Part shown: positions 15,015 to 42,606 of the stretch, one piece after another
Position numbering within the stretch: the stretch's first letter is position 1
How the letters are laid out: the number at the start of each line of letters is the position of its first letter
Virus record (IMG/VR): IMGVR_UViG_3300033571_029033
Span: 1-44,237 of that record
Reading direction: 5' to 3' (one strand)
Source: a virus
Length of the DNA stretch: 44,237 bases
Made by a program: the position numbers and the translations under genes
The notes under the pieces: model-generated
Database searches by the model: none
What the model was told of the DNA's origin: nothing
What the model saw: only the letters and a program-made list of their open reading frames with translations

Positions 15015-15197
15015 TCAGTGCGTTTTCTTCAGCCTGTCCTCGAAGGTCCGCTCGAAGCAGGCGCAGTTGACCCTGCCCTCACGCTCGCATGCGCAGACGT
15101 CTGCCAGCGCCGTGTGGCGCATGACGGCTGCGGCGGTGACCACGGCCCAGAACAGGAAGGTCACGAAGATCAGGTTGTTGCGGGTTTCCGTACTCAT
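15015..15197 (-). CDS. Small Cys-rich single-pass membrane protein
   Basis: 60 aa. A short polar N-terminus, one hydrophobic helix (LIFVTFLFWAVVTAAAVM), then an outer domain with four cysteines (VCACEREGRVNCACFERTF) and a basic end. Its ATG shares a base with the protease stop (TGATG), so it is coupled to the papain-like gene. Size and topology recall spanin-like or antiholin-like lysis accessories, but no signature settles it. Confidence 0.6.
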   Translation of the reverse strand: MSTETRNNLIFVTFLFWAVVTAAAVMRHTALADVCACEREGRVNCACFERTFEDRLKKTH

Positions 15198-16144
15198 CAG
15201 AAGCTCCAGTCGAGCTCATCAATCTTCTTGCGCCAGCCGGAAAGGCCGGAGAAGGCGAAGCTGTCCTTCATGGAGAGCATGCGGTGGACGGTGTCGGCGT
15301 TGGCGAGGAACGTCCCTGCGTTGTAGCCCTCGGGCACGGAGCCCGACATATACCCGCCACCCCATGAGTTCTCTATTGCAAAATGAAGTTTCCCGTTGAT
15401 GTGCCTGTAACCACATATGCACATGCAATGCGCCCATGATCCCTGCGGGGCGCAGACGCCGTTGGAGTCCCTTCGCTTCGAGAAGCCCTGCGTGCTGCAG
15501 ACCGATATGCCGTGACCGTTCGCCAACGCTTTCATGGCGTCGTCTGCGGTCGTCACGATGGCCGTGCTGGCCACGAGGTGGTCGTCGGCGAGGTCCAGAA
15601 GCTCCTTGGGCACGCCCTTGCTGCCGAACTCCCTGCACTGCGACTCGCTGTAGACTGACAGGTCCCACTTTCCATGCTTGGCCATGTCGATGACGCCATA
15701 TTTGGTGCACCACTTGGCCGCCCAGGCGCCGATGCTGCCGTCTGACCTGAACGGGCTGCGTCCGCCGTTGACGTTGACACGGCTTCCGCCGTAGATGACC
15801 GGACGGGAAAGCAGCCGAAACTCCTCCTCGTCGCCAGTTCCGATCTCGACTATGTTCGTGAGCTCGACCGCCCTCGCCGCACCATGTCCGACGCAGGAGC
15901 CGACCTGGCCCTGGTTTCGCACGTCGAGGAGCGGCTTGCCGGTGGCCATCTGGCAGAATTTGTAGAGGTTCACTTCTTTCGGCAGCTCGGCGATGGGAAT
16001 CTCGCAGATCGGCAGGTCGTGGACGTCGGGGCAGCCCATGTCCGCCACGGCCACACGGACTGCGTCCGGGTCGTCCACCCAGCCGGTGTAATGAAGACTG
16101 TCGCCGACCATCACCTCGTCGTTGATGTTGCTTTCGTCGCTCAT
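15197..16144 (-). CDS. Papain-like (C1A) cysteine protease
   Basis: 315 aa. The catalytic set of papain is present: oxyanion Gln78 and Cys84 in VRNQGQVGSCVGHGAA, with the same six-residue spacing as papain Q19-C25; His239 in GSWAHCMCICGY; and Asn259 in IENSWGG. There is no signal peptide; the first 70 residues look like a propeptide or linker region. It sits with the small membrane proteins and a secreted protein, where an endolysin would be expected, and no muramidase or amidase is seen. It could attack host envelope protein or process virion proteins. Confidence 0.85.
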   Translation of the reverse strand: MSDESNINDEVMVGDSLHYTGWVDDPDAVRVAVADMGCPDVHDLPICEIPIAELPKEVNLYKFCQMATGKPLLDVRNQGQVGSCVGHGAARAVELTNIVEIGTGDEEEFRLLSRPVIYGGSRVNVNGGRSPFRSDGSIGAWAAKWCTKYGVIDMAKHGKWDLSVYSESQCREFGSKGVPKELLDLADDHLVASTAIVTTADDAMKALANGHGISVCSTQGFSKRRDSNGVCAPQGSWAHCMCICGYRHINGKLHFAIENSWGGGYMSGSVPEGYNAGTFLANADTVHRMLSMKDSFAFSGLSGWRKKIDELDWSF

Positions 16145-16761
16145 TTCAGTGCCTCCAGTCCCTTGACGATGTCGTCGATGGTTTTCGCCAAAACGGCGGC
16201 ATCAACGGCTGCGGAGCCTGAGCGCCCGAAGACGGCGAGCAGGTGGCCGGAGATCAGGTCCCTGAGCGATCTGAGCTGCTGGGGTTCCAGCTTGCTGCCG
16301 ACCTTGTCCTTGACTTCCCGGTTCAGGTCGGTGACGGTGCTGATCGACGACTGGTCGATCCTCGAGAACCCCTCGAGGATCTTGTTTTTGCTGACGTTTT
16401 TTTCGGGGTCGTCGATTGTCTGCCAGACCGCCTGCATGCCCTTCTGGAGTGCACCTGGTTCTGGTTTGGGTGCGTCGCCAATGGTGATGATGGTGTATGC
16501 TGGCTGGGTGGGCTTGTTGTCGATGGCTGAATAGGCGAGAAGCTTGTAGCTGCCGGGCTTGCCGGTGGCCACGAAGCTCTTGGCGTCCTTCAGCAGCGAA
16601 GCGTCTAGGACCTTCAGCCCCTCGCTCAGCGGCACGTAGACGACGGTTTCGCCCTTGGTCACGGCCTTCAAAATCACGTAGTCGCCTGTCGCCACCTGCA
16701 CGCTTGGCGGCAGGCTGATGTCGGGCTGTCCGAGCAGCAGCAGAAGTATGATGCTTTTCAT
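16141..16761 (-). CDS. Secreted protein with Ig-like domain, planctomycete-like
   Basis: 206 aa. A short hydrophobic N-terminus (MKSIILLLLLGQP) is a weak signal peptide. Residues about 15-95 form one Ig-like domain (PPSVQVATGDYVILKAVTKG, GLKVLDASLLKDAKSF, GSYKLLAYSAIDNKPTQPAY); the rest is helical (LRSLRDLISGHLLAVFG). The arrangement resembles short secreted proteins I associate with planctomycete genomes and their phages. It overlaps the protease by four bases and has its own AGGGGG ribosome site after a terminator hairpin. Possibly a partner, inhibitor or target of the protease. Confidence 0.65.
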   Translation of the reverse strand: MKSIILLLLLGQPDISLPPSVQVATGDYVILKAVTKGETVVYVPLSEGLKVLDASLLKDAKSFVATGKPGSYKLLAYSAIDNKPTQPAYTIITIGDAPKPEPGALQKGMQAVWQTIDDPEKNVSKNKILEGFSRIDQSSISTVTDLNREVKDKVGSKLEPQQLRSLRDLISGHLLAVFGRSGSAAVDAAVLAKTIDDIVKGLEALK

Positions 16762-16834: not shown

Positions 16835-17440
16835 TTATTTGGGCCTAGTTTCCTCTAGCTCTCGATAGAAATCCTCGGCAGTATATATTGGAGCCTTGGC
16901 GAGGTGCCGTGCTGCGGCACGCATGGCGATGCGCATCGACTCCTTATGAAAGTCTCGCCTCTTCTCGTCCATACCCCACGTCGCCACCTTATGGGCGAAG
17001 TCGTGGTACGTCCTGCCGGGCTTGGCGCCATAGAGCAGCACCTGCTCGAGTGCCTTTTGGGTGTCGTCAAACGACTTGTGCCAATCCCAGGTTTTAGGGT
17101 CTGCGTGAACCTCGGCGACACGCTTGCAGCTTCCCTTAAAGTCGCTGCCGATCTGGGCTATCTGCCCAAGGAAACGAAGCAGGGGATGCCTCGAGGTCGG
17201 AAGCTCGACCGTCATGCCGACGCTGACGTCCCTGTCGGTTTCATACGTGTACTTTCGCTTGTTGTCGGTCATGACGACGACACGCTGCACCCTCCTGTAG
17301 GTCTTGGGCTCGATGCCCGCAGCATATGCAACTGGCGGTGTGTCGTACCTCTGGGCGACTAGGACGGTCACCTGTACTGCGTCCGGTAGCGGGGTGGTCT
17401 GCGTGGTTTCGACCACGGCCTTGCGATAAATGCTAGTCAT
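16835..17440 (-). CDS. Unknown protein, second gene of the hub A leftward operon
   Basis: 201 aa. The N-terminal half is beta-rich (PDAVQVTVLVAQRYDTPPVAY, KTYRRVQRVVVMTDNKRKY); the C-terminal half is helical and rich in His and basic residues (KTWDWHKSFDDTQKALEQVL, HDFAHKVATWGMDEKRRDFH). It has no transmembrane segment and no known motif. It overlaps the preceding gene by eight bases and lies close to the promoter, so it is probably made early. Function unknown. Confidence 0.7.
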   Translation of the reverse strand: MTSIYRKAVVETTQTTPLPDAVQVTVLVAQRYDTPPVAYAAGIEPKTYRRVQRVVVMTDNKRKYTYETDRDVSVGMTVELPTSRHPLLRFLGQIAQIGSDFKGSCKRVAEVHADPKTWDWHKSFDDTQKALEQVLLYGAKPGRTYHDFAHKVATWGMDEKRRDFHKESMRIAMRAAARHLAKAPIYTAEDFYRELEETRPK

Positions 17441-17801
17441 GGTTGTTTTGGGCCCTGAATGTCTGGTACTGGCCTCGGGTGACCTTCTCGCACACGTCAG
17501 CGATCATGAGCTCGGCCTTGGCGACGGCCTTGTCGAGCTGGGCGTCCGTGAACCTCCTATAGCTGCCGATCTCGACCACAACCTTGGACACCTCAGCCAC
17601 GAAGGTCCACCTGTCCGACACCTCGTCTCCCCACCTGCCGTCCTTGACGTGGACGACCGTCATCATTAGCTTCCCCGCCTCGGCGTGAACCATCACCGAC
17701 TTCCTGTCTGCGGGGCTTCCGAAGCTCAGGCACTTCGATCTTCGATGGCATGGGTAGCGAAGAACAGAAAACTCGTGGTTGATTCCTTTTTGCCAGTTCA
17801 T
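17433..17801 (-). CDS. Unknown protein, first gene of the hub A leftward operon
   Basis: 122 aa from ATG 17801, chosen because AGGAG lies seven bases upstream; the frame opens further back but would reach into the promoter leader. Alternating strands (FSVLRYPCHRRSKCLSFGS, KLMMTVVHVKDGRWGDE, KVVVEIGSYRRFTD) and a C-terminal helix, with two Cys near basic residues. As the first gene behind the strongest leftward promoter it is a candidate early or host-takeover protein. No family recognised. Confidence 0.7.
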   Translation of the reverse strand: MNWQKGINHEFSVLRYPCHRRSKCLSFGSPADRKSVMVHAEAGKLMMTVVHVKDGRWGDEVSDRWTFVAEVSKVVVEIGSYRRFTDAQLDKAVAKAELMIADVCEKVTRGQYQTFRAQNNHD

Positions 17802-17841
17802 CGCTGTCTCCTTTGATGCGCCACGTTCATACACCTCAATC

Positions 17842-17870
17842 AATATACGACGACGAGTTCAGGCAGTCAA
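17842..17870 (-). promoter_or_regulatory. Strong sigma70-type promoter, leftward
   Basis: On the minus strand TTGACT, a 17-base spacer and TATATT: five of six consensus bases in each box. Transcription would start near 17835, about 35 bases before the 17801 start codon. The AT-rich stretch just upstream (17871-17896) could act as an UP element or unwinding region. Confidence 0.8.
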
Positions 17871-18233
17871 GCGAAAATTTTTTCTTTTACTTTTTGGAGG
17901 TAAGCGCTATATTAAGGTCGGAGCTGAATCTCACCACGAGACCGGATCTATCTCGACCAGCGTTCTGCCTAGCGCCTGCATCCTGCGGGCCGCCAAAGCG
18001 GGGGCCAACGCTGTCCGAGACCGGTGGAGCGGACAAGGGACTAAGCGAGCGACAACGGGGGTCACGGGCCTTGAGCCTGCGATTCTAGCCTGCGGTCGAC
18101 TCTGCGGCTCACTCTCTTGGGGGCGCACCCGGGCCATGTCGCAGTTAAACCTGGGGCTCGGGGGTAAGGGGGCGCTCACCCTGTGAGGCGAAAGGGAAGA
18201 GATCCGTAATCGAATCATCAAATCGTTCAGAAT

Positions 18234-18283
18234 GAACATCCAGTAACATCCAGCTAACCCAAGCAAACCCAAGCGAACCCCAA
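18234..18283. repeat. Five iteron-like repeats at helical spacing
   Basis: Five units beginning AAC at 18235, 18245, 18256, 18266 and 18276: two AACATCCAG, two AACCCAAG and one AACCCCAA. The spacing of 10, 11, 10 and 10 bases puts them on one face of the helix, as at origins bound by an initiator or at multi-site operators. Confidence 0.7.
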
Positions 18284-18554
18284 TCGTACTGCCGGCTCGC
18301 AGGCTCGCCGGGCGACCTCCCGGCTGCGCCGGTCGATCGCTACAACCACATCCTCGGTTCGATTGGGCCAAGAGCACAGATGTCGCAGTCCCCCCGACTC
18401 CAACGGAGGAAGCGACCCCCAAAACGGCTGGGCGCTTCGCCCGGCCGCATTTCGTAGCGTAGCGAGGCCGCAGGCCGAGCGGAGCAAGAACCGTTGGGCT
18501 ACGGTTGGGTTACCCTCGCTGTCGGCCGGCCATGCTGCCAACCAGGTTTCGGGG

Positions 18555-18583
18555 TTGACGGCCGGGCAGCGACCGGCTAGCCT
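18555..18583 (+). promoter_or_regulatory. Possible rightward promoter for the hub A small genes
   Basis: TTGACG (18555-18560), a 17-base spacer and TAGCCT (18578-18583), 34 bases before the ATG at 18617. The -35 box is good and the -10 box poor, so an activator or the phage sigma factor may be needed. Confidence 0.35.
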
Positions 18584-18616
18584 GAGGCGGGGTTGATGGT
18601 GATGGAGGGCTTGGCG

Positions 18617-19099
18617 ATGTCCGATGACAGGTACACGTCTTGGCGTGAGGGTCTGGTGCAGAGGCTGCAGGTGGAGCTTGACGACCTTGGCAGGGAGACG
18701 GGCTGGAACGCTGCGCTCGACCGGCTTAGGCAACTGCAGAACGAGCTTCGTCGTGCGGTTGAAGACAACCGCAGGCTCTCAGCCGCAGACGAGACCATGA
18801 GACGGCGTCAGTCGTTCCAGGGCAGGATCGCAGAGCTGAACTCACAGGACGAGCCCACGACGCAGGCCTTGCTGGCACTCAGGTGCGGGAACGACGAGTT
18901 CAGCTCCCTCTGCGGCTCCAGAGTCATGACCCTCGCCGGAGACGAGGCGAGCAAGATATGCGGCGACCTGTTCGCAGGTGACAGGTTCAGCCGTGACAGA
19001 GCCCTTCGCTGGGTCCTCCGTGGCCTCAGGCCAGAGCATGCGGTCAAAAAAGTGCGTCTCGACAACGAGAAGTTCGGAACTGAGAGAAAAAGAGCATGA
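18617..19099 (+). CDS. Helical protein of unknown function, first rightward gene of hub A
   Basis: 160 aa. ATG 18617 is chosen because GGAGGG lies seven bases upstream; TTG, ATG and ATG codons at 18593, 18596 and 18602 are in frame but lack this site. The N-terminal two thirds is a charged, probably coiled-coil helix (LQVELDDLGRETGWNAALDR, LQNELRRAVEDNRRLS); the rest is mixed with two Cys (LALRCGNDEFSSLCGS). No known domain. Likely an early protein given its place next to the putative origin. Confidence 0.7.
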   Translation: MSDDRYTSWREGLVQRLQVELDDLGRETGWNAALDRLRQLQNELRRAVEDNRRLSAADETMRRRQSFQGRIAELNSQDEPTTQALLALRCGNDEFSSLCGSRVMTLAGDEASKICGDLFAGDRFSRDRALRWVLRGLRPEHAVKKVRLDNEKFGTERKRA

Positions 19100-19127
19100 C
19101 GCATATCATTCACGGCGAGTACGAGGC

Positions 19128-19514
19128 ATGAGGCACCTCGCCAGCCCAGACTACCCGATGGAGTGGTACGAGAGGCAGAACGAACTCCTGCTCGCCAGCA
19201 TCAGGCGCTCGTTCGACGAGGCCAAGCTAAGGCAGAGCTTCGGCATGACCTGGGAACGCTACTGGGGCCCCGTGCCGCAGATGCTTCTCGGCAGTCCGTA
19301 CTTCACTTGGGTCTACCTCTCCGGCATTGGCGGCTGGGGCGACACGACCTTCGAGATACCGAGGGACAGGGAGCGCAAGAAGGACAGGAGAACCCTCGAG
19401 CGTGAGTGGCAGGAGTCCTTGCTTGAACGGCGTGACCGGCGCTGCATGGCCATCACCGATGAGTTCAGGAAGAACCAGGCCTACGTGAATTCATTGAACG
19501 GGCGACTATTCTGA
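19128..19514 (+). CDS. Charged protein of unknown function
   Basis: 128 aa from ATG 19128, with ACGAGG upstream; the frame opens earlier but overlaps the preceding gene. It has Trp/Tyr-rich segments (PMEWYERQNELLL, TWERYWGPVPQMLLGSPYFT) and a basic/acidic helix (RDRERKKDRRTLEREWQESL). No transmembrane segment, no known motif. It ends two bases before the upstream region of the helix-turn-helix gene and is probably in the same transcript. Confidence 0.65.
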   Translation: MRHLASPDYPMEWYERQNELLLASIRRSFDEAKLRQSFGMTWERYWGPVPQMLLGSPYFTWVYLSGIGGWGDTTFEIPRDRERKKDRRTLEREWQESLLERRDRRCMAITDEFRKNQAYVNSLNGRLF

Positions 19515-19521
19515 GGTGCGT

Positions 19522-19710
19522 ATGGGAAAAGAGATTCAGGTCATCCACGACGGCAAAACGTACGACAGCATCCGTGCCCTGGCGAGGGAGCTGGGAATTC
19601 ACGTCCAGACCCTGTACTCAAGGGTGCGCCGTGGCGAGTTCCAGGTCTTGCGGCCGGAGAGGGTGACGACCACCAAGTCCGTCGAAGTCGTCGAGTGGCG
19701 GTGGCGCTGA
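19522..19710 (+). CDS. Small helix-turn-helix protein
   Basis: 62 aa from ATG 19522 (GAGGTG ribosome site; a GTG at 19516 is an alternative). The core DGKTYDSIRALARELGIHVQ then TLYSRVRRG is a helix-turn-helix of the kind found in NUMOD-type modules and small phage regulators, where an aromatic/Gly strand precedes the recognition helices. It lies two genes before an HNH nuclease, with which such modules often travel. It could bind hub A or the HNH target site. Confidence 0.7.
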   Translation: MGKEIQVIHDGKTYDSIRALARELGIHVQTLYSRVRRGEFQVLRPERVTTTKSVEVVEWRWR

Positions 19711-19859
19711 TGTGTTATCGGTATGTCTATGAATATGCAGGCTTTCTAATCCGCATTGAGGGACTCTGCCGCATATTCGGGTGCAGATCGCCCCAGCACA
19801 TGCGCTGGCGGATTCAGCGTGATCTGGCCGACAAAATCAAAAAAGTCTGGCCGAAATAG
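19710..19859 (+). CDS. Very small basic protein, coupled to the HTH gene
   Basis: 49 aa (MCYRYVYEYAGF start). Its ATG shares one base with the preceding stop (TGATG), a typical coupling. The sequence is basic with LIRIEGLCRIFGCRSPQHMR then WRIQRDLADKIKKV, which could be a second short DNA-binding helix pair. It ends 18 bases before the terminator hairpin. No family recognised. Confidence 0.55.
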   Translation: MCYRYVYEYAGFLIRIEGLCRIFGCRSPQHMRWRIQRDLADKIKKVWPK

Positions 19860-19877
19860 AAAAATCATATCGACCAT

Positions 19878-19926
19878 ACTCCTCTGATGACAAGGGAATC
19901 ACCCCTGTTATCAGAGGAGTTTTTTT
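19878..19926 (+). terminator. Strong terminator hairpin that also holds the next gene's ribosome site
   Basis: Two 19-base arms (19878-19896 and 19902-19920) pair with a single mismatch around a five-base loop and are followed by seven Ts: a textbook Rho-independent terminator for the three rightward genes. The right arm contains AGAGGAG, which ends seven bases before the ATG at 19927, so the same hairpin hides the HNH gene's ribosome site. Confidence 0.92.
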
Positions 19927-20466
19927 ATGATACGACCCATCAACGTTCGTCAGGCATATATCGATTTTGATTACGATCGAGAAAACGGCAACCTCATCTG
20001 GAGAACCGGACCCTGGAAGGGCCAAATCGCAGGCACCATCAACGGCTGCGGGTACCGCATCGTGACCTGGCTGGGCAGGAAGTGGTATGCGCACAGGATC
20101 GCCGCCGCCATGGTCCTCAACAGCGACCTGGTCAACAGCATCATTGACCACCGCAATTATCGGCAGTCTGATAACCGCTGGGTCAACCTCTGGGTCGGGA
20201 CGCTGCGGGAGAACGTCGCCCGCCGGCGCCTCAAGCCCGGCAACCGGGGCCTGCGCTACCAGGGCATCGAGAAACGGGTGTACTCGTTCGGCGTCCGCTA
20301 CCGCATGTCGATCGTGGCGGGAGGCAAGAAGTTCGTCGGCCAGCCGCAGAGGACGCAGCGTGCCGCCTATGTCGACTACCTTAACAAGTTCCGTGAGACG
20401 CAGGGATTCCTGTACATGCCCCCGAAGCTGCAGGCCGACTACCTGCGTCTCATTGGCGCCGCCTAG
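19927..20466 (+). CDS. HNH homing endonuclease-like protein
   Basis: 179 aa. The HNH core is YAHRIAAAMVLN, then IIDHRNYRQSDNRW and VNLWVGTLREN, matching the phage HNH group (H.....VDHxNxxxxDNRxxNLRxxTxxxN). The C-terminus has an AP2/DNA-binding-like strand region (LRYQGIEKRVYSFGVRYRMS) common in this group. Such genes are usually selfish mobile elements. It starts immediately after a terminator and its end overlaps the convergent 20450-21841 gene by 17 bases, which looks like an insertion at an operon boundary. Nothing shows it interrupts another gene. Confidence 0.85.
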   Translation: MIRPINVRQAYIDFDYDRENGNLIWRTGPWKGQIAGTINGCGYRIVTWLGRKWYAHRIAAAMVLNSDLVNSIIDHRNYRQSDNRWVNLWVGTLRENVARRRLKPGNRGLRYQGIEKRVYSFGVRYRMSIVAGGKKFVGQPQRTQRAAYVDYLNKFRETQGFLYMPPKLQADYLRLIGAA

Positions 20467-21841
20467 CGCAACCGCAGCCCTTCGTGACGGCCCGCCTCAT
20501 CATCTCCGGAGTCATCCGGGGCGGTGCGGCGGGCCGCCTCGTCGTGGTCGTCGGGGTCTCGTCGGGAGGAATTCCCATCATCATCATCGGCGGCAGGCAG
20601 GTGGTCGACGTGGTCGAAGTGGTTCCGGCAGGGAAAGGGTAGGCCGTCGTGCTTGTCGGACTCTCCGGGTAGGGTGTCGTGCTGGTGCCTGGGCAGACAG
20701 GCAGGATGTCCTGGTTCGGGAATGGCGCCAGGTAGAAGTACACGTAGAAGTCCGGAAAGTCCACGAAGTAGACCGTCGGGTTGCCGTCCCTGACCTTCTG
20801 CGGAGCGCCCCACGTCCATGAAAGAGTCGTTGAGTCGTAGTGTCCAAAGTTCAGCGGCCCCTCGTTGATGCTCTTTATGGCGAAGTAGCCAAGCCCCGAG
20901 ACCACCCCGACCTGCACCTGCTGCACGGCTCCGACCGTCTCGCCGGGCAGGCCAGTCACTCCGAAGACCTGCACGAAGTCGTTGGCGTTTGGCCCCTCCC
21001 ACTCGTTGTTGACGGTCTCGCCCTCGACTGGGCTCAGGGACGTCAGCGTGATCTGGTCACAGTAGCAGTATGCAGTGAAGTTGGTCCCGCAGGGGTTGGG
21101 GTTCCTGCCCAAAACGAATGGATATGGCACGAATGCGTCGGTCTTCGAGGTCACGATGGCCGTGGCGCAGGCCTGGAACTGGCCCCCGTGGAACAGGCCG
21201 CACGGCTCGCCGCAGCGCTCGACGAACGGGACGACCCCCGCCACCATGGTCACCGCACCGATGTCGCCCTTGCCTCCGCTCTGGCTGACGGTTATCGGGA
21301 GGTACTGGGTCGGAGTCTGGTACCCACGAGAGTCGTACTGGCGCAGCCTGCCGGGGATCTCCGTCATTCCCGATCCCCAGCTAGCGTACCCCACCCACAC
21401 GTTCTCGCCGCCGACCTGGTTCAGGACCTGCACGGTCACCGTCACGTTGATGGCGTTGGGGGCCGTGGGGACCAGCGTGGCCCTCGCCCTGTACTGATTA
21501 GTGCACAGGCCGGCCGAGACGCCGCCGAAGTACGCATAATCGCTGATCCACGTGCTGGGGTTCGGCTCCTGGTTCTGCGGCACGGCGGCAGGGCAGAAGC
21601 GGAAGGTGACCGTGCCGGGGATCCACTCTGACAGCGTGTACTCAGGGTTCGGGGCCGGACACGGTCCGTCCCAGAACTGGACGGTTATGATGCCGTACCT
21701 GTATATCCACCCCTGCGTGGGGCTGTAGTTCCATCCGATCGGGCTGCACGACAGGCCCGCCTCGACGCTCTCCGGCCCGCAGACTCCCTCGTCCCCGCAG
21801 ACGTTCTGAGCCACAACCTGAAGCGGATTCTCGATCGTCAT
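20450..21841 (-). CDS. Structural protein with Cys/Thr-rich C-terminus, tail tip or fibre-associated
   Basis: 463 aa, last gene of the structural operon. The first 360 residues are beta-rich with many Cys (GDEGVCGPESVEAGLSCSP, CGEPCGLFHGGQFQACATA, NPCGTNFTAYCYCDQ). After residue about 365 the chain becomes a Pro/Thr/Ser linker (GTSTTPYPESPTSTTAYP) and ends in a basic Met/Pro-rich tail closing with GCGCARRR. No known domain. It overlaps the upstream gene as ATGA, so it belongs with the four genes before it. Confidence 0.65.
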   Translation of the reverse strand: MTIENPLQVVAQNVCGDEGVCGPESVEAGLSCSPIGWNYSPTQGWIYRYGIITVQFWDGPCPAPNPEYTLSEWIPGTVTFRFCPAAVPQNQEPNPSTWISDYAYFGGVSAGLCTNQYRARATLVPTAPNAINVTVTVQVLNQVGGENVWVGYASWGSGMTEIPGRLRQYDSRGYQTPTQYLPITVSQSGGKGDIGAVTMVAGVVPFVERCGEPCGLFHGGQFQACATAIVTSKTDAFVPYPFVLGRNPNPCGTNFTAYCYCDQITLTSLSPVEGETVNNEWEGPNANDFVQVFGVTGLPGETVGAVQQVQVGVVSGLGYFAIKSINEGPLNFGHYDSTTLSWTWGAPQKVRDGNPTVYFVDFPDFYVYFYLAPFPNQDILPVCPGTSTTPYPESPTSTTAYPFPAGTTSTTSTTCLPPMMMMGIPPDETPTTTTRRPAAPPRMTPEMMRRAVTKGCGCARRRQ

Positions 21842-23005: not shown

Positions 23006-23509
23006 TCACACCCCCGTGTAGGTGATTATGAACGGCATCTGGCAGCCGCTGCTGTTGAGAACGGCTCCCGAGAGAGTGAATGTGGTCTCGTTGGTCTGCG
23101 GGTTCCATGAGCAGGAGCCCGCAAGGTCGACGCCATCGAGCACATACCAGTATGTGCCCGAGGTCATCTGCGCCGTGATGTCGGGCATGTCCGCCGTGCC
23201 GCACATTAGCGGCTGGATGCTGGAGGTGCTGAGAAGCAGGTAGGCCCCGGTGCCGTTGCTCCACGACCACGTGTATGAGCAGGGGATTCTGGTCAAAATC
23301 ACCTCCTGTGTCGTCGTCGTCCAGCCCTCGTCGGCGCAGTTAGGGGCGGGAGGGCTCGGCTGGGTCTGCGTAGTCGGGTAGACCGTGGCCCTGAAGGCGC
23401 TCGGCAGCCGCTTCAGGCCGAAGCATGGGTAATAGACGGGCTTGTACTCGTAGGCCGGTGCGGTGTTCTTGCAGTCGAGTAGTTCATTCAGGGGCATAAG
23501 GTCATCCAA
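23006..23509 (-). CDS. Small Cys-containing structural protein
   Basis: 167 aa from ATG 23509, overlapping the upstream stop as ATGA. It carries a short TTQTQPSPPAPNC linker at about 47-58 and a C-terminal beta domain (SYTWSWSNGTGAYLLLSTSS, TYWYVLDGVDLAGSCSW). Seven Cys suggest disulfide-stabilised virion parts exposed outside the cell. Probably a minor tail protein; no family recognised. Confidence 0.6.
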   Translation of the reverse strand: MDDLMPLNELLDCKNTAPAYEYKPVYYPCFGLKRLPSAFRATVYPTTQTQPSPPAPNCADEGWTTTTQEVILTRIPCSYTWSWSNGTGAYLLLSTSSIQPLMCGTADMPDITAQMTSGTYWYVLDGVDLAGSCSWNPQTNETTFTLSGAVLNSSGCQMPFIITYTGV

Positions 23510-24029
23510 AGAGAAGGCTGTCGGTGCCGTTGATTAGCAGGGCGTCACCGCCGCCGTTTATGCTGATGAAATTGCCGGGCTGCGGTGTCGTAGACGTCGT
23601 GCTGGTCGTCGTCTGCACGCATGCATCAGAGTACAGAACGCTCAGGAATCCCTGCGAGCAGTCGACGTTCAGGACACGGCAGCATGAGTCGCTGTACGTT
23701 GCGCCGGCCCCGCTCCGGACGAACTCGAATACGTTCTCCTCCTGATCGACGGCCGCACGCCATCGCATGAGGACGATCTCGTCAAGCGCTGGCTCGTTGC
23801 CGTCGATCGGGACGGCTACGTTAAGGCCCTCCTCGCAGTCCCCGTAGAGGACGCCGGACTCGACGTCCGTGAGGCCCTGCATGTTGGCGCAGTAGACCAT
23901 CTGCTGCCATGAGCAGCGCCAGTTCGAGCACGGGTCGGCCGGGTCCTTGGGGCAGATGGCCGTGATCCTTGCGATGAACCACTCGGATGTGGTGTACATC
24001 GAGCCGTCGCTGTTCCTTGTCGTCTTCAT
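23502..24029 (-). CDS. Cys-rich tail protein, paralogue of the next upstream gene
   Basis: 175 aa from ATG 24029 (ATGA overlap). Residues 1-100 align with the 24026-24439 protein: NSDGSMYTTSEWFIARITAI, CSWQQMVYCANMQGL, YGDCEEGLNVAVPI, EIVLMRWRAAVDQEENVFEF. It then adds a Thr/Ser linker (TTTSTTSTTPQPG) and a short C-terminal strand pair (NFISINGGGDALLINGTD). Conserved Cys positions suggest the same disulfide pattern in both copies. Role in the tail tip is inferred from position. Confidence 0.65.
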   Translation of the reverse strand: MKTTRNSDGSMYTTSEWFIARITAICPKDPADPCSNWRCSWQQMVYCANMQGLTDVESGVLYGDCEEGLNVAVPIDGNEPALDEIVLMRWRAAVDQEENVFEFVRSGAGATYSDSCCRVLNVDCSQGFLSVLYSDACVQTTTSTTSTTPQPGNFISINGGGDALLINGTDSLLFG

Positions 24030-24439
24030 TCGGGAGCCTCGCATCCCTCGGAGAACGTCGCCGACAGCACGTCGCCGGAGCACTGTATGGCCGTGAGCGC
24101 CAGGGTCTCGGTGTTGCCGCCGGGCGAGAAGAACTCGAAGGCGTTGTTGTCCTGTCCGACCGCCCCACGCCAGCGCATCAGCACTATCTGGCCCGTCGAA
24201 GGCGGGAAGCCGCTGATCGGGTAGGCCACGTTGTCGCCGGACAGGCAGTCACCATAGGTCAGGCCGCTTGGCTCGCCCGTGAACGACTGCATGTTTGCGC
24301 ACGGGACAAGAGTCCTCCATGAGCAGCCGATGCCGGCGCAAGGGTCGTCCGAAACACGGTCGCAGACCTGGGTGATCTCGGCGAGGAACCACTCCCGTGA
24401 GGTGAATACCGACCCGTCGCTCTGCGCTATGGCCCTCAT
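24026..24439 (-). CDS. Cys-rich tail protein, paralogue of the next downstream gene
   Basis: 137 aa from ATG 24439 (ATGA overlap). SDGSVFTSREWFLAEITQV, CSWRTLVPCANMQSF, YGDCLSGDNVAYPI and IVLMRWRGAVGQDNNAFEF match the following protein line by line. It lacks the Thr/Ser tail, so it may be the ancestral, unextended form. Seven Cys. Probably a minor tail protein made with the two large paralogues upstream. Confidence 0.65.
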   Translation of the reverse strand: MRAIAQSDGSVFTSREWFLAEITQVCDRVSDDPCAGIGCSWRTLVPCANMQSFTGEPSGLTYGDCLSGDNVAYPISGFPPSTGQIVLMRWRGAVGQDNNAFEFFSPGGNTETLALTAIQCSGDVLSATFSEGCEAPE

Positions 24440-25698
24440 GCGTGACCTGGGTCCCACAGGACCTGAGGGCTGAACGACCAGTACGGGGGCCACGCAATGG
24501 TCTTGTTGGCCTCGTTGTTGGACTCGACGTAATAGAACATCCTGTTGGGAAGCGGAACGAAGTTCCATCCGTTGGTGATCATTTTGCCGAACTCGGGGTT
24601 CCAGATGATGTCGAGGAACGGCTGGACCCTCTGGTCCTCGGGGATGGTGTACTGTATGAACTCAAAGGTGATGTTCACGGTCTGGTTCTTCAGGACGTTG
24701 TTGAGCAGGTCGTTGTCGGTCTTTCCGGAGAACCCTAGGATCGGGTACGGGCAGGACGGCTCGGACACCGTGTAGCCCGTGTATAGGAGAGTGCCGGGCG
24801 CATAGTTGAAGAAGTTGTAGTTGAAGGTCTCAAAATCGCCCTCGTCGTCGTTGAAGTTCGGGCCGAAATTGCACTGCGCTGCGTAGCGTGTGTACTTGTC
24901 GGACAGGGCGACGGACTTCGGCACCTTGTTCCAGGTGATGCGCACCTTGTTCTTGGTGATGTTGATGAAGTTGACCGAGGCGTTCTGCGCCACGAGTGGC
25001 GTCTCTGCAAAGGGAGCCGGCTCCTCGGGCTGAACCTCGCCTGGCGGGGCCGACTTCCAGTAGAACTTGCCGTCGCCGCTGACGATGACGTCGTTGCCCG
25101 GCTCGATCTTTATTTCCGTGTACCTGAGGTATTCCCTGTAGTCCGTGTACTGGACGGCCTTCACCTTGCTGTTCTGCGTGTTGTCACGCTGCCAGAACGT
25201 GTACTTCGGCGGCGCCGCCCCGCCCTGCAGGATGGCCGGCTCGAGCTGCTGGTCGGTCAGGACGAAGTAGTTCCGTGTCCTGAAGGTCACGGCGATGCGG
25301 TACATGTCGTAGACCGCCTGGTACGGGAAGGTCCGGTAGTCTATGGGGACCTGCCTGTCCGGGTCGTTTGTGCGGAAGATCGAGTTGGCCACCGTGAAGG
25401 ACTCGGCGGCCATCTTGCCGGCAGCCTTGACCCCCACGATGTCGATCGAGTCGGCGTACAGGTACGGATACCTCGGGTGGGACATCTCGACCTGGCGCTT
25501 CAGCCCGCCGACCTGCCCCGGCCCCCAGACCTTGTCGGACACGTACACGTAGCCGAGCACGAACCAGAAGACGTCGTATATGTCCTTCCTCTTGACGGTG
25601 AAGAAAAGCGTGGCCTGCGTTGCGCCGGGCGCCACGGCGAGGTCGCCCGGGCTCTCGCCGTCGAGGTTTTCCAGCATGTAGGCCAAATCGACGGCCAT
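24436..25698 (-). CDS. Baseplate/distal tail protein B (paralogue pair)
   Basis: 420 aa from ATG 25698, which shares one base with the preceding stop (TGATG). It is a diverged copy of the 25698-26924 protein: YRIAVTFRTRNYFVLTDQQL against YKVTVEFTSRNYAVYTDEQL, TDYREYLRYTEIKIEPGNDV and GDGKFYWKS at matching places, and a similar opening (LDGESP). It lies directly after the tape measure, where baseplate hub and distal tail proteins are encoded. No Dit or Tal motif is obvious. Confidence 0.7.
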   Translation of the reverse strand: MAVDLAYMLENLDGESPGDLAVAPGATQATLFFTVKRKDIYDVFWFVLGYVYVSDKVWGPGQVGGLKRQVEMSHPRYPYLYADSIDIVGVKAAGKMAAESFTVANSIFRTNDPDRQVPIDYRTFPYQAVYDMYRIAVTFRTRNYFVLTDQQLEPAILQGGAAPPKYTFWQRDNTQNSKVKAVQYTDYREYLRYTEIKIEPGNDVIVSGDGKFYWKSAPPGEVQPEEPAPFAETPLVAQNASVNFINITKNKVRITWNKVPKSVALSDKYTRYAAQCNFGPNFNDDEGDFETFNYNFFNYAPGTLLYTGYTVSEPSCPYPILGFSGKTDNDLLNNVLKNQTVNITFEFIQYTIPEDQRVQPFLDIIWNPEFGKMITNGWNFVPLPNRMFYYVESNNEANKTIAWPPYWSFSPQVLWDPGHA

Positions 25699-41071: not shown

Positions 41072-41497
41072 TCAGTAGATGTATGGGCTGGGCGCTATCG
41101 CCCAGCTACGGTACTCGGTCGCCATGCTGTCCCAGTCGTTCCAGGAGCGCTTGAAGCGGATGATGGACTCCCTGACGTGGTCCTCATGGAGCGGGTCCAT
41201 CAGCCACACGCTCCTGTCCTCCATCTCGCACACGACGAGCCAATGGCCGTCACGGCAGACGATGACGGGCAGCCTGCGCCCCACGTAATGCTTGAGTAAC
41301 GTCCACGAGAAATTGCCGGAGACGACGGAGAACCCCTGCTTGCGCAGGAAGCACTCGATCGTCCTCGGCGCCGTCCCGTCGACCTGCGAGCTGAAGTTCA
41401 GCCCACGCACGTTGGCCCCGTAGTGGCGCAGGATCGACTCCACCACGGCCTCGCCGCAGTTGTGGTCGGCAGTCTGGCGGACGATCGGCACCCTCAT
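41072..41497 (-). CDS. C39-like cysteine peptidase
   Basis: 141 aa from ATG 41497; an in-frame extension upstream runs through the hub B promoter and is rejected. The C39 set is present: oxyanion Gln8 and Cys14 in VRQTADHNCGEAVVESIL, His85 in DGHWLVVCEMED, and Asp101 in VWLMDPLHED. The family cuts leader peptides at double-glycine-like sites, usually fused to a transporter; here it stands alone and lacks a signal peptide. It is the first gene of the head operon, so it may process a phage or host protein. The ribosome site is weak. Confidence 0.75.
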   Translation of the reverse strand: MRVPIVRQTADHNCGEAVVESILRHYGANVRGLNFSSQVDGTAPRTIECFLRKQGFSVVSGNFSWTLLKHYVGRRLPVIVCRDGHWLVVCEMEDRSVWLMDPLHEDHVRESIIRFKRSWNDWDSMATEYRSWAIAPSPYIY

Positions 41498-41606: not shown

Positions 41607-41891
41607 ATGGATATCCTTGACGTCCGATGCAAGCTGCAGTCGATCGGCCTCCCCTGGAGGCTCCACATGCCCGTGGCTATGGGTTTGGCCGCCTGCCTGC
41701 CCGTTGGCCTGTTCCTGGCGCTTTACCAGCCGTTTACCGGACAGGTGCACGGATTGGTCAGGTACAACGCACCGGCGGAGAAGGTGGTCAGGAGCAACGA
41801 GGGGTTCTACATAAAGACCCCGTACGGTAACGCAGCCCCAACGGGCCAGAACATGATCGCAATCGAGCGACTGAGAAAAAGTGGCTGGTGA
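41607..41891 (+). CDS. Membrane protein of unknown function, first hub B gene
   Basis: 94 aa, ribosome site GAGGTGAAG, about 40 bases after the predicted transcription start. One hydrophobic helix (PVAMGLAACLPVGLFLALYQ, residues 21-40) separates a short cytoplasmic start from a C-terminal domain of about 50 residues (HGLVRYNAPAEKVVRSNEGF, IKTPYGNAAPTGQNMI). As the first gene of a strong promoter it is a candidate early envelope protein such as a superinfection-exclusion factor. No family recognised. Confidence 0.65.
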   Translation: MDILDVRCKLQSIGLPWRLHMPVAMGLAACLPVGLFLALYQPFTGQVHGLVRYNAPAEKVVRSNEGFYIKTPYGNAAPTGQNMIAIERLRKSGW

Positions 41892-41989
41892 GAGACTGAC
41901 GCATGAAAATCCAGAAAGTAGACTTGACTTTGAACGAGGCAAGAATCGAGATGGCCAGGAGAACGACGAGTGAGCACCGAGGAGGGACG

Positions 41990-42364
41990 ATGAAGATCAC
42001 CGCAAAGAAGGCTCTGGACGCACTGGTTGCCAAGGGTTTGGCCGAGTCCTGGCGGAAGTTCAGGGTCAAGGAGTCACCACTGAAGATGCTGGGAAGGAAA
42101 GGCTTCGACGAGTTCAGCGTGACCAGCCTGAAGGTCAACGGCGCCAAGTTCCGCCTGAGCAGCGAGAGCTGGTGCAAGCAGAGCTTCCTGATCTTTTCCT
42201 TCGACACCTTCGAGGCCGCCTGTCAGGTGCGGGACGTCCTCAAGGAGGCCGGAGGAAAGCCAAGGTTTATCGGTTGGACCTGCGGCGAGGCTCGTGAGAG
42301 ACTGCAATTGCAGGTCTACTTCTTCAAGGCCTCCAGGTGGTGGGAGTATGAGTATGGACTATGA
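41990..42364 (+). CDS. Unknown small protein, hub B
   Basis: 124 aa from ATG 41990, chosen for GGAGGG just upstream; an in-frame ATG at 41903 would give 153 aa but has a poorer site. Basic helical start (KITAKKALDALVAKGLAESW), a strand-rich middle (FDEFSVTSLKVNGAKFRLSS) and an aromatic end (LQVYFFKASRWWEYEYG). No known domain. Its stop overlaps the following mini-gene as ATGA. Confidence 0.65.
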   Translation: MKITAKKALDALVAKGLAESWRKFRVKESPLKMLGRKGFDEFSVTSLKVNGAKFRLSSESWCKQSFLIFSFDTFEAACQVRDVLKEAGGKPRFIGWTCGEARERLQLQVYFFKASRWWEYEYGL

Positions 42365-42423
42365 GTATGGCTCTCGTTGACGACGAAAAGCGCACGTGGG
42401 TCACGGTCAGGTATGCTGACTAG
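42361..42423 (+). CDS. Possible 20-residue leader-like mini-gene
   Basis: MSMALVDDEKRT and eight more residues. Its ATG overlaps the upstream stop (ATGA), and its own stop lies inside the left side of the hairpin at 42408-42470. This is the layout of a translated leader whose ribosome could change folding ahead of the next gene, but it may be chance. Confidence 0.35.
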   Translation: MSMALVDDEKRTWVTVRYAD

Positions 42424-42470
42424 GGAGCATCTGGCGGTGGACAACGAGTCATCCGCCTCCTAGCATACTG
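42408..42470 (+). promoter_or_regulatory. Hairpin upstream of the last hub B gene
   Basis: CAG(G)TATGCT at 42408-42417 pairs with AGCATACTG at 42462-42470 with one bulge, and GGCGG at 42433 pairs with CCGCC at 42453 inside. No T-run follows. The next gene's strong ribosome site (AGGAGGTGAG) starts three bases later and stays free when the hairpin forms. Confidence 0.5.
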
Positions 42471-42483
42471 TCAGGAGGTGAGT

Positions 42484-42606
42484 ATGATGGACACTACCGA
42501 CTATGAGCTTCTGCGACGGCTTGGCATCAGGCTGGAGGTCGATTCCGAAGGCTACTGGGAAATACCCTCGGAGGCAATGGTTCTCGTCGACGAGAACGAC
42601 GAGTGA
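42484..42606 (+). CDS. 40-residue acidic protein, last hub B gene
   Basis: MMDTTDYELLRRLGIRLEVD and on to EAMVLVDENDE. Its ribosome site (AGGAGGTGAG) is the best in the window. Strongly acidic, no Cys, one short helix and a strand. It ends two bases before the convergent end of the large terminase gene. Small acidic early proteins of phages often bind host enzymes, but nothing here shows a target. Confidence 0.6.
   Translation: MMDTTDYELLRRLGIRLEVDSEGYWEIPSEAMVLVDENDE

Follow-up and report, generated by a model that had tools for sequence, protein, structure and literature searches.

What is the function of the 815 bases without a gene at positions 17802-18616 of the virus record IMGVR_UViG_3300033571_029033, and do they encode a large structured RNA, act as a replication origin, or both, as had been proposed from the sequence alone? 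The window, i.e. the whole stretch of 44,237 nucleotides that was analysed, is a complete circular phage genome, whose ends repeat 87 bases and which therefore comprises 44150 bases (44.15 kb). Portal, terminase large subunit, capsid and tape-measure genes were recognised in it, and among the window genes scanned PhoH, RusA, methyltransferase and two glycosyltransferase genes were found as well; none of them was identified as a DNA polymerase, primase or helicase gene. The phage family is little known, as public phage records hold distant relatives only. Nearly all genes are located on the minus strand, with the exception of a small plus-strand cluster at 18617-20466 and a second one at 41607-42606. 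The gene-free stretch, termed the hub, is the point of divergence, from which minus-strand genes run leftward from 17801 and plus-strand genes rightward from 18617. The hub and the genes beside it are as follows:

17433..17801, minus strand: first leftward gene, an orphan of 122 aa with codon bias and a ribosome site and without relatives
17802..18616, no strand: the hub, whole noncoding and probable control region, without coding signal
18617..19099, plus strand: first rightward gene, encoding an orphan helical protein of 160 aa, with codon bias
19522..19710, plus strand: gene of a small helix-turn-helix-like protein that may regulate the hub, with weak HTH_30/NUMOD1 and excisionase-like matches
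19927..20466, plus strand: HNH endonuclease gene at the end of the rightward cluster (PF13392, 2.7e-5; phrog_99, 1.6e-18)

The model of the 18617-19099 protein is all-helical and of low confidence (pLDDT 61). The 19522-19710 protein was modelled with a pLDDT of 80, and a structural search with this helix-turn-helix model gave no significant match. In a 216-base gap between the rightward genes a consensus promoter was detected on the minus strand (19893-19864, TTGTCA-18-TATGAT), which faces back over the early cluster, so that antisense RNA could result.

The absence of genes from the hub was confirmed, since codon usage, 3-base periodicity and ribosome sites were all negative inside it. All open reading frames of the hub score negatively against the codon usage of their own genome, and 3-base periodicity is absent, its values being among the lowest of all windows. 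The only combinations of ribosome site and start that begin a real gene at the hub are the flanking ATG 17801 (minus strand, AAGGAGA) and ATG 18617 (plus strand, GGAGGG); on the plus strand of the hub before ATG 18617 no ribosome site plus start was observed. Long GC-rich open frames are present, e.g. 18363-18596 (77 aa), which carry neither codon bias nor a ribosome site, and a missed gene was ruled out by codon score, periodicity and PHROG searches of these long frames. The hub is by far the longest gap of the genome, the second longest measuring 296 bases. It had been argued that 815 bases of this kind must be under selection; this does not follow, because related phages repeatedly show noncoding gaps of 400-1000 bases. 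No 5- to 9-mers were over-represented in the hub once word choice was corrected for, and counts of AACCC, being post hoc, were discarded as support.

Within the hub, the following sequence elements were identified:

17826..17915, no strand: AT-rich segment with P_L and P_R1, joint lowest-GC 90-mer of the genome (0.36)
17842..17870, minus strand: P_L, leftward promoter motif, TTGACT-17-TATATT (10/12 matches in the consensus scan)
17886..17913, plus strand: P_R1, first rightward promoter motif, TTTACT-16-TATATT (9/12 matches in the consensus scan)
17920..18554, plus strand: predicted untranslated transcript of ~640 nt from P_R1 to P_R2, without ribosome site or coding bias
18235..18284, no strand: five tandem units of ~10 bp (lag-10 self-match 29/40, P=0.005 over lags 4-60)
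18555..18583, plus strand: P_R2, second rightward promoter motif, TTGACG-17-TAGCCT, 34 nt before ATG 18617

An AT-rich border had been noted in the sequence-only reading, and the 90-mer at 17826, with a GC content of 0.36, indeed ties with one other 90-mer for the minimum of the genome. A promoter had also been assigned to each edge; divergent promoters were found, but their number had to be corrected to three, two of which share the left border. There, P_L (17870-17842) and P_R1 (17886-17913) stand back to back, and the -10 element of P_L ends 40 nt upstream of ATG 17801. The consensus scan yielded two sites in a 1.6-kb region, compared to 0.2 in shuffles, and only 10 in the whole genome. At the right edge, P_R2 follows the pattern TTGAC-N15-GGCTAGNNTGAG, which is common to the window and to the closest relative located among contigs, G013 (IMGVR_UViG_3300043772_004289). 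In G013, TTGAC-N14/15-GGCTAGNNTGAG recurs upstream of two rightward early genes, the second copy having TGAA for TGAG. The full pattern occurred 0 times in 200 shuffles, and the shorter pattern TTGAC-N14/15-GGCTAGNNTG had one further match in 3.26 Mb of related loci. An untranslated stretch of ~640 nt bracketed by two rightward promoters follows from the positions of P_R1 and P_R2. The hub is likely a bidirectional control region, in which the promoters are known as motifs and transcription would start from them in both directions.

The predicted iteron-like repeats proved to be a single array at 18235-18284, which exceeds shuffles over all lags (P=0.005) and consists, in order, of the units AACATCCAGT, AACATCCAGC, TAACCCAAGC, AAACCCAAGC and GAACCCCAAT. 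Its score is matched by a few other 815-bp windows of the same genome, and it is the sole real repeat between P_R1 and P_R2. In related phages, tandem arrays were present in 13 of 31 divergent noncoding gaps versus 17 of 123 other gaps (Fisher P=0.0015). Iteron-type origins carry at least three tandem repeats near an AT-rich segment together with a cognate initiator gene, in most cases an adjacent one. The hub resembles them in its tandem short direct repeats near an AT-rich segment (18235-18284 and 17826-17915, respectively), but differs in that its units are only 10 bp long and imperfect and lie 320 bp from the AT-rich segment, and in that no initiator gene was recognised nearby, none being found among the hub neighbours in Pfam or PHROGs.

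Promoters and a 10-bp array would equally be expected in a plain bidirectional promoter/operator region that has a long 5' leader but lacks an origin, in which an early helix-turn-helix protein, e.g. that encoded by 19522-19710, binds the array and switches early to late expression. The presence of such a small gene in the rightward cluster is consistent with this explanation, as is a GC skew that is not significant (see below). On the other hand, 815 bases are long for an operator alone, and P_R1 lies 700 nt ahead of the first gene, for which a separate promoter, P_R2, is present. We consider the plain operator a credible though somewhat improbable explanation of the hub.

As transcription from P_R1 would cover about 640-680 nt in which there is no gene, the hub might instead encode a new family of large structured noncoding RNA, of GOLLD or ROOL size and transcribed from P_R1. 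The fold z of the whole hub on the plus strand (-2.3, 20 shuffles) and of the single window 18300-18449 (-3.1) point in this direction. However, the promoter-defined stretch 17919-18600 gave z values of -1.15 (plus strand) and -1.42 (minus strand), and coding controls of the same length, with z from +0.6 to -2.6, were equally low or lower. The several long-range pairings noted earlier do exist, but perfect stems in the hub do not exceed those in shuffles (8-mers P=0.07, 9-mers 0.17, 10-mers 0.32). A large structured RNA is thus not supported, as folding energy and stems match shuffles and coding controls. The search against large phage-borne RNA families gave no Rfam match that reached the gathering score, and nothing relevant appeared up to E=10; neither a tRNA nor a tmRNA was found in the genome, and consequently no tRNA cluster. 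Homologues of the hub DNA were found neither in phages and plasmids nor in 255 related loci and 392 genomes from the phylum to which a Brocadia contig (described below) belongs. Two weak matches among these 392 genomes lie inside apparent coding stretches and were attributed to chance, and a 12-mer, GGGGCTCGGGGG, common to the hub and a noncoding region of G029 is at chance level (E 4.8). GOLLD and ROOL RNAs are often located close to tRNA genes and have a conserved, covarying secondary structure. The hub is similar to GOLLD and ROOL RNAs in size range and phage setting (PMC12286853); it differs from them in having no covariance-model match, no tRNA island or tRNA in its proximity, and no fold excess. 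A new RNA family in the hub is therefore very improbable; the RNA reading is unsupported, though not disproved, and as a structured-RNA lead the hub can be set aside.

Is the hub a replication origin? The minimum of the detrended GC skew was detected at 18453, inside the hub. The range of the cumulative skew is within permutation expectation (P 0.18-0.21), and GC skew was rejected as proof of an origin since this range is not significant; in G013, a skew minimum also lies close to the divergent region, but gene direction confounds this signal. Neither an initiator nor any other replication gene was identified among the scanned genes, in the genome or beside the hub. The suggestion of an origin thus stands in part: the promoter layout, the AT-rich stretch and the array fit, whereas the skew is not significant and no initiator gene was recognised, which leaves an origin possible and unproven.

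The closest parallel to this arrangement is the origin of Lactococcus phage c2 (Ceduovirus), a stretch of noncoding DNA that separates the divergent early and late modules and is flanked by the first two early promoters (PMC7150918). The first early promoter of c2 makes an untranslated RNA which is thought to initiate replication, and the origin types within its genus have no sequence similarity to each other (PMC7150918). In the c2 record (NC_001706, 6635-7245) the intergenic region comprises 611 bp, in the order late promoter, EP1, noncoding stretch, EP2 and e1. The hub likewise lies between divergent modules, the opposite one of which begins with lysis genes, and shows the same succession of a putative late promoter, a first putative early promoter, an untranslated stretch without ribosome site, a second putative early promoter and a putative early gene. 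In both regions RNA folding is not in excess and a GC-skew minimum lies inside. Used as a yardstick, the origin transcript of c2 gave a fold z of -0.28, that is, no excess, and the GC-skew minimum fell inside its origin. Since this known origin also has no fold excess, the lack of fold in the hub is no argument against a c2-like mechanism.

Differences between the two are apparent as well. There is no sequence similarity; the hub is GC-rich except for its left border, while c2 has 33% GC; the two -10 boxes are 670 nt apart in the hub and 361 nt in c2; and, unlike in c2, the rightward cluster holds four genes only and long open frames are found in the hub. A c2-type origin is a noncoding region between divergent gene modules with two early promoters, no ribosome-binding site downstream of the first (PE1), and no open frame of at least 100 bp between PE1 and PE2; its replication requires the noncoding PE1 transcript, and it sustains a plasmid in the host. 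The hub is such a region, has two early promoters as sequence motifs (P_R1, 17886-17913; P_R2, 18555-18583) and has no ribosome-binding site downstream of the first. Because open frames above 100 bp are present inside, it was not filed as a c2-type origin, and its origin activity, suggested by analogy to c2, is putative. Based on the c2-like order of promoters, untranslated stretch and early gene, we favor the hub as an early/late control region that also serves as a c2-like origin, a reading whose chances we judge to be about even. A stronger version, in which P_R1 yields a functional structured RNA of ~640 nt that has no known relatives, possesses a fold of its own and primes replication in phages whose hosts are probably Planctomycetota, as a GC-rich counterpart of the PE1 transcript of c2, appears hardly probable.

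Gene order around the hub was compared with that in related phages, which were reached only through terminase and peptidase alignments. Protein scans of viral contigs with the flanking genes of the hub gave no matches, and single-sequence scans with the peptidase and portal found no relatives. Between the terminase and portal genes of the window lies a gene with a C39-type peptidase domain (41072-41497; PF03412, 8.4e-11), whose position is kept in relatives. The terminase alignments led to a phage family, one member of which, L131, is located on a Candidatus Brocadia assembly contig, a hint at Planctomycetota as hosts of this family. A gene pair of the window, encoding a signal-type protein (16141-16761) and a papain-like C1 peptidase (15197-16144), recurs in dozens of related loci, its order being retained almost throughout, and is preceded by a gene of the same direction in 44 of 47 loci, a count that includes near-duplicates. 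In G017 and L188 the pair abuts a homologue of 20450-21841, which in the window sits across the hub. As the genes on either side of the block 16835-20466 are direct neighbours in relatives, it looks as if this block, with the hub, was inserted into an older tail-lysis operon, in which case P_L would be needed for restarting leftward transcription. A homologue of the orphan gene 16835-17440 adjoins the capsid gene in the relatives G012-G015, and this gene has thus moved between genome sites.

An interrupted operon, and a hub of which relatives are found nowhere, would also be expected if the hub were recently inserted or decayed DNA, with relics of inserted genes awaiting removal. However, no periodicity or protein match is left in any frame, promoters and array are intact at both edges, and in G013 the corresponding site still has a divergent region with P_R2, so that we consider this reading very unlikely. 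The region in G013 (23479-24871, 1393 bases) contains a leftward promoter with 12/12 matches, a rightward promoter (24093-24121), direct repeats and P_R2. Like the hub, it is located directly upstream of the signal-protein and C1-peptidase pair and has back-to-back promoters over AT-rich DNA, a P_R2-type promoter before rightward genes, and direct repeats. It differs from the hub in a GC content of 35%, two small genes inside, real terminators and the lack of alignable sequence. Since a small gene and a terminator are located behind its P_R1, the corresponding transcript would be untranslated in the window only. Long divergent noncoding gaps are common in related phages, and the hub is one of a recurring kind without sequence conservation. 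A different noncoding stretch, upstream of a DUF932 gene in G033 (24387-24953; L170 4387-4953), harbors a long array of the hexamer AGAATA and a C-run.

If the hub combines a control region with a c2-like origin, P_L would fire to the left and start, or restart, the long operon on that side, which comprises lysis, fibre and further genes. P_R1 would fire to the right and produce an untranslated RNA of ~640 nt across the hub, and P_R2 would then start the small rightward early-gene cluster. By analogy to c2, transcription from P_R1 over AT-rich DNA is probably what activates or primes replication, with the tandem 10-bp array as a putative binding site of an initiator or regulator. The hub is a likely centre of transcription, and perhaps also of replication, in a little-known phage family. 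If the c2-like reading is true, origins activated by transcription would not be confined to lactococcal phages, and the hub could be used as a replicon for hosts without genetic tools.
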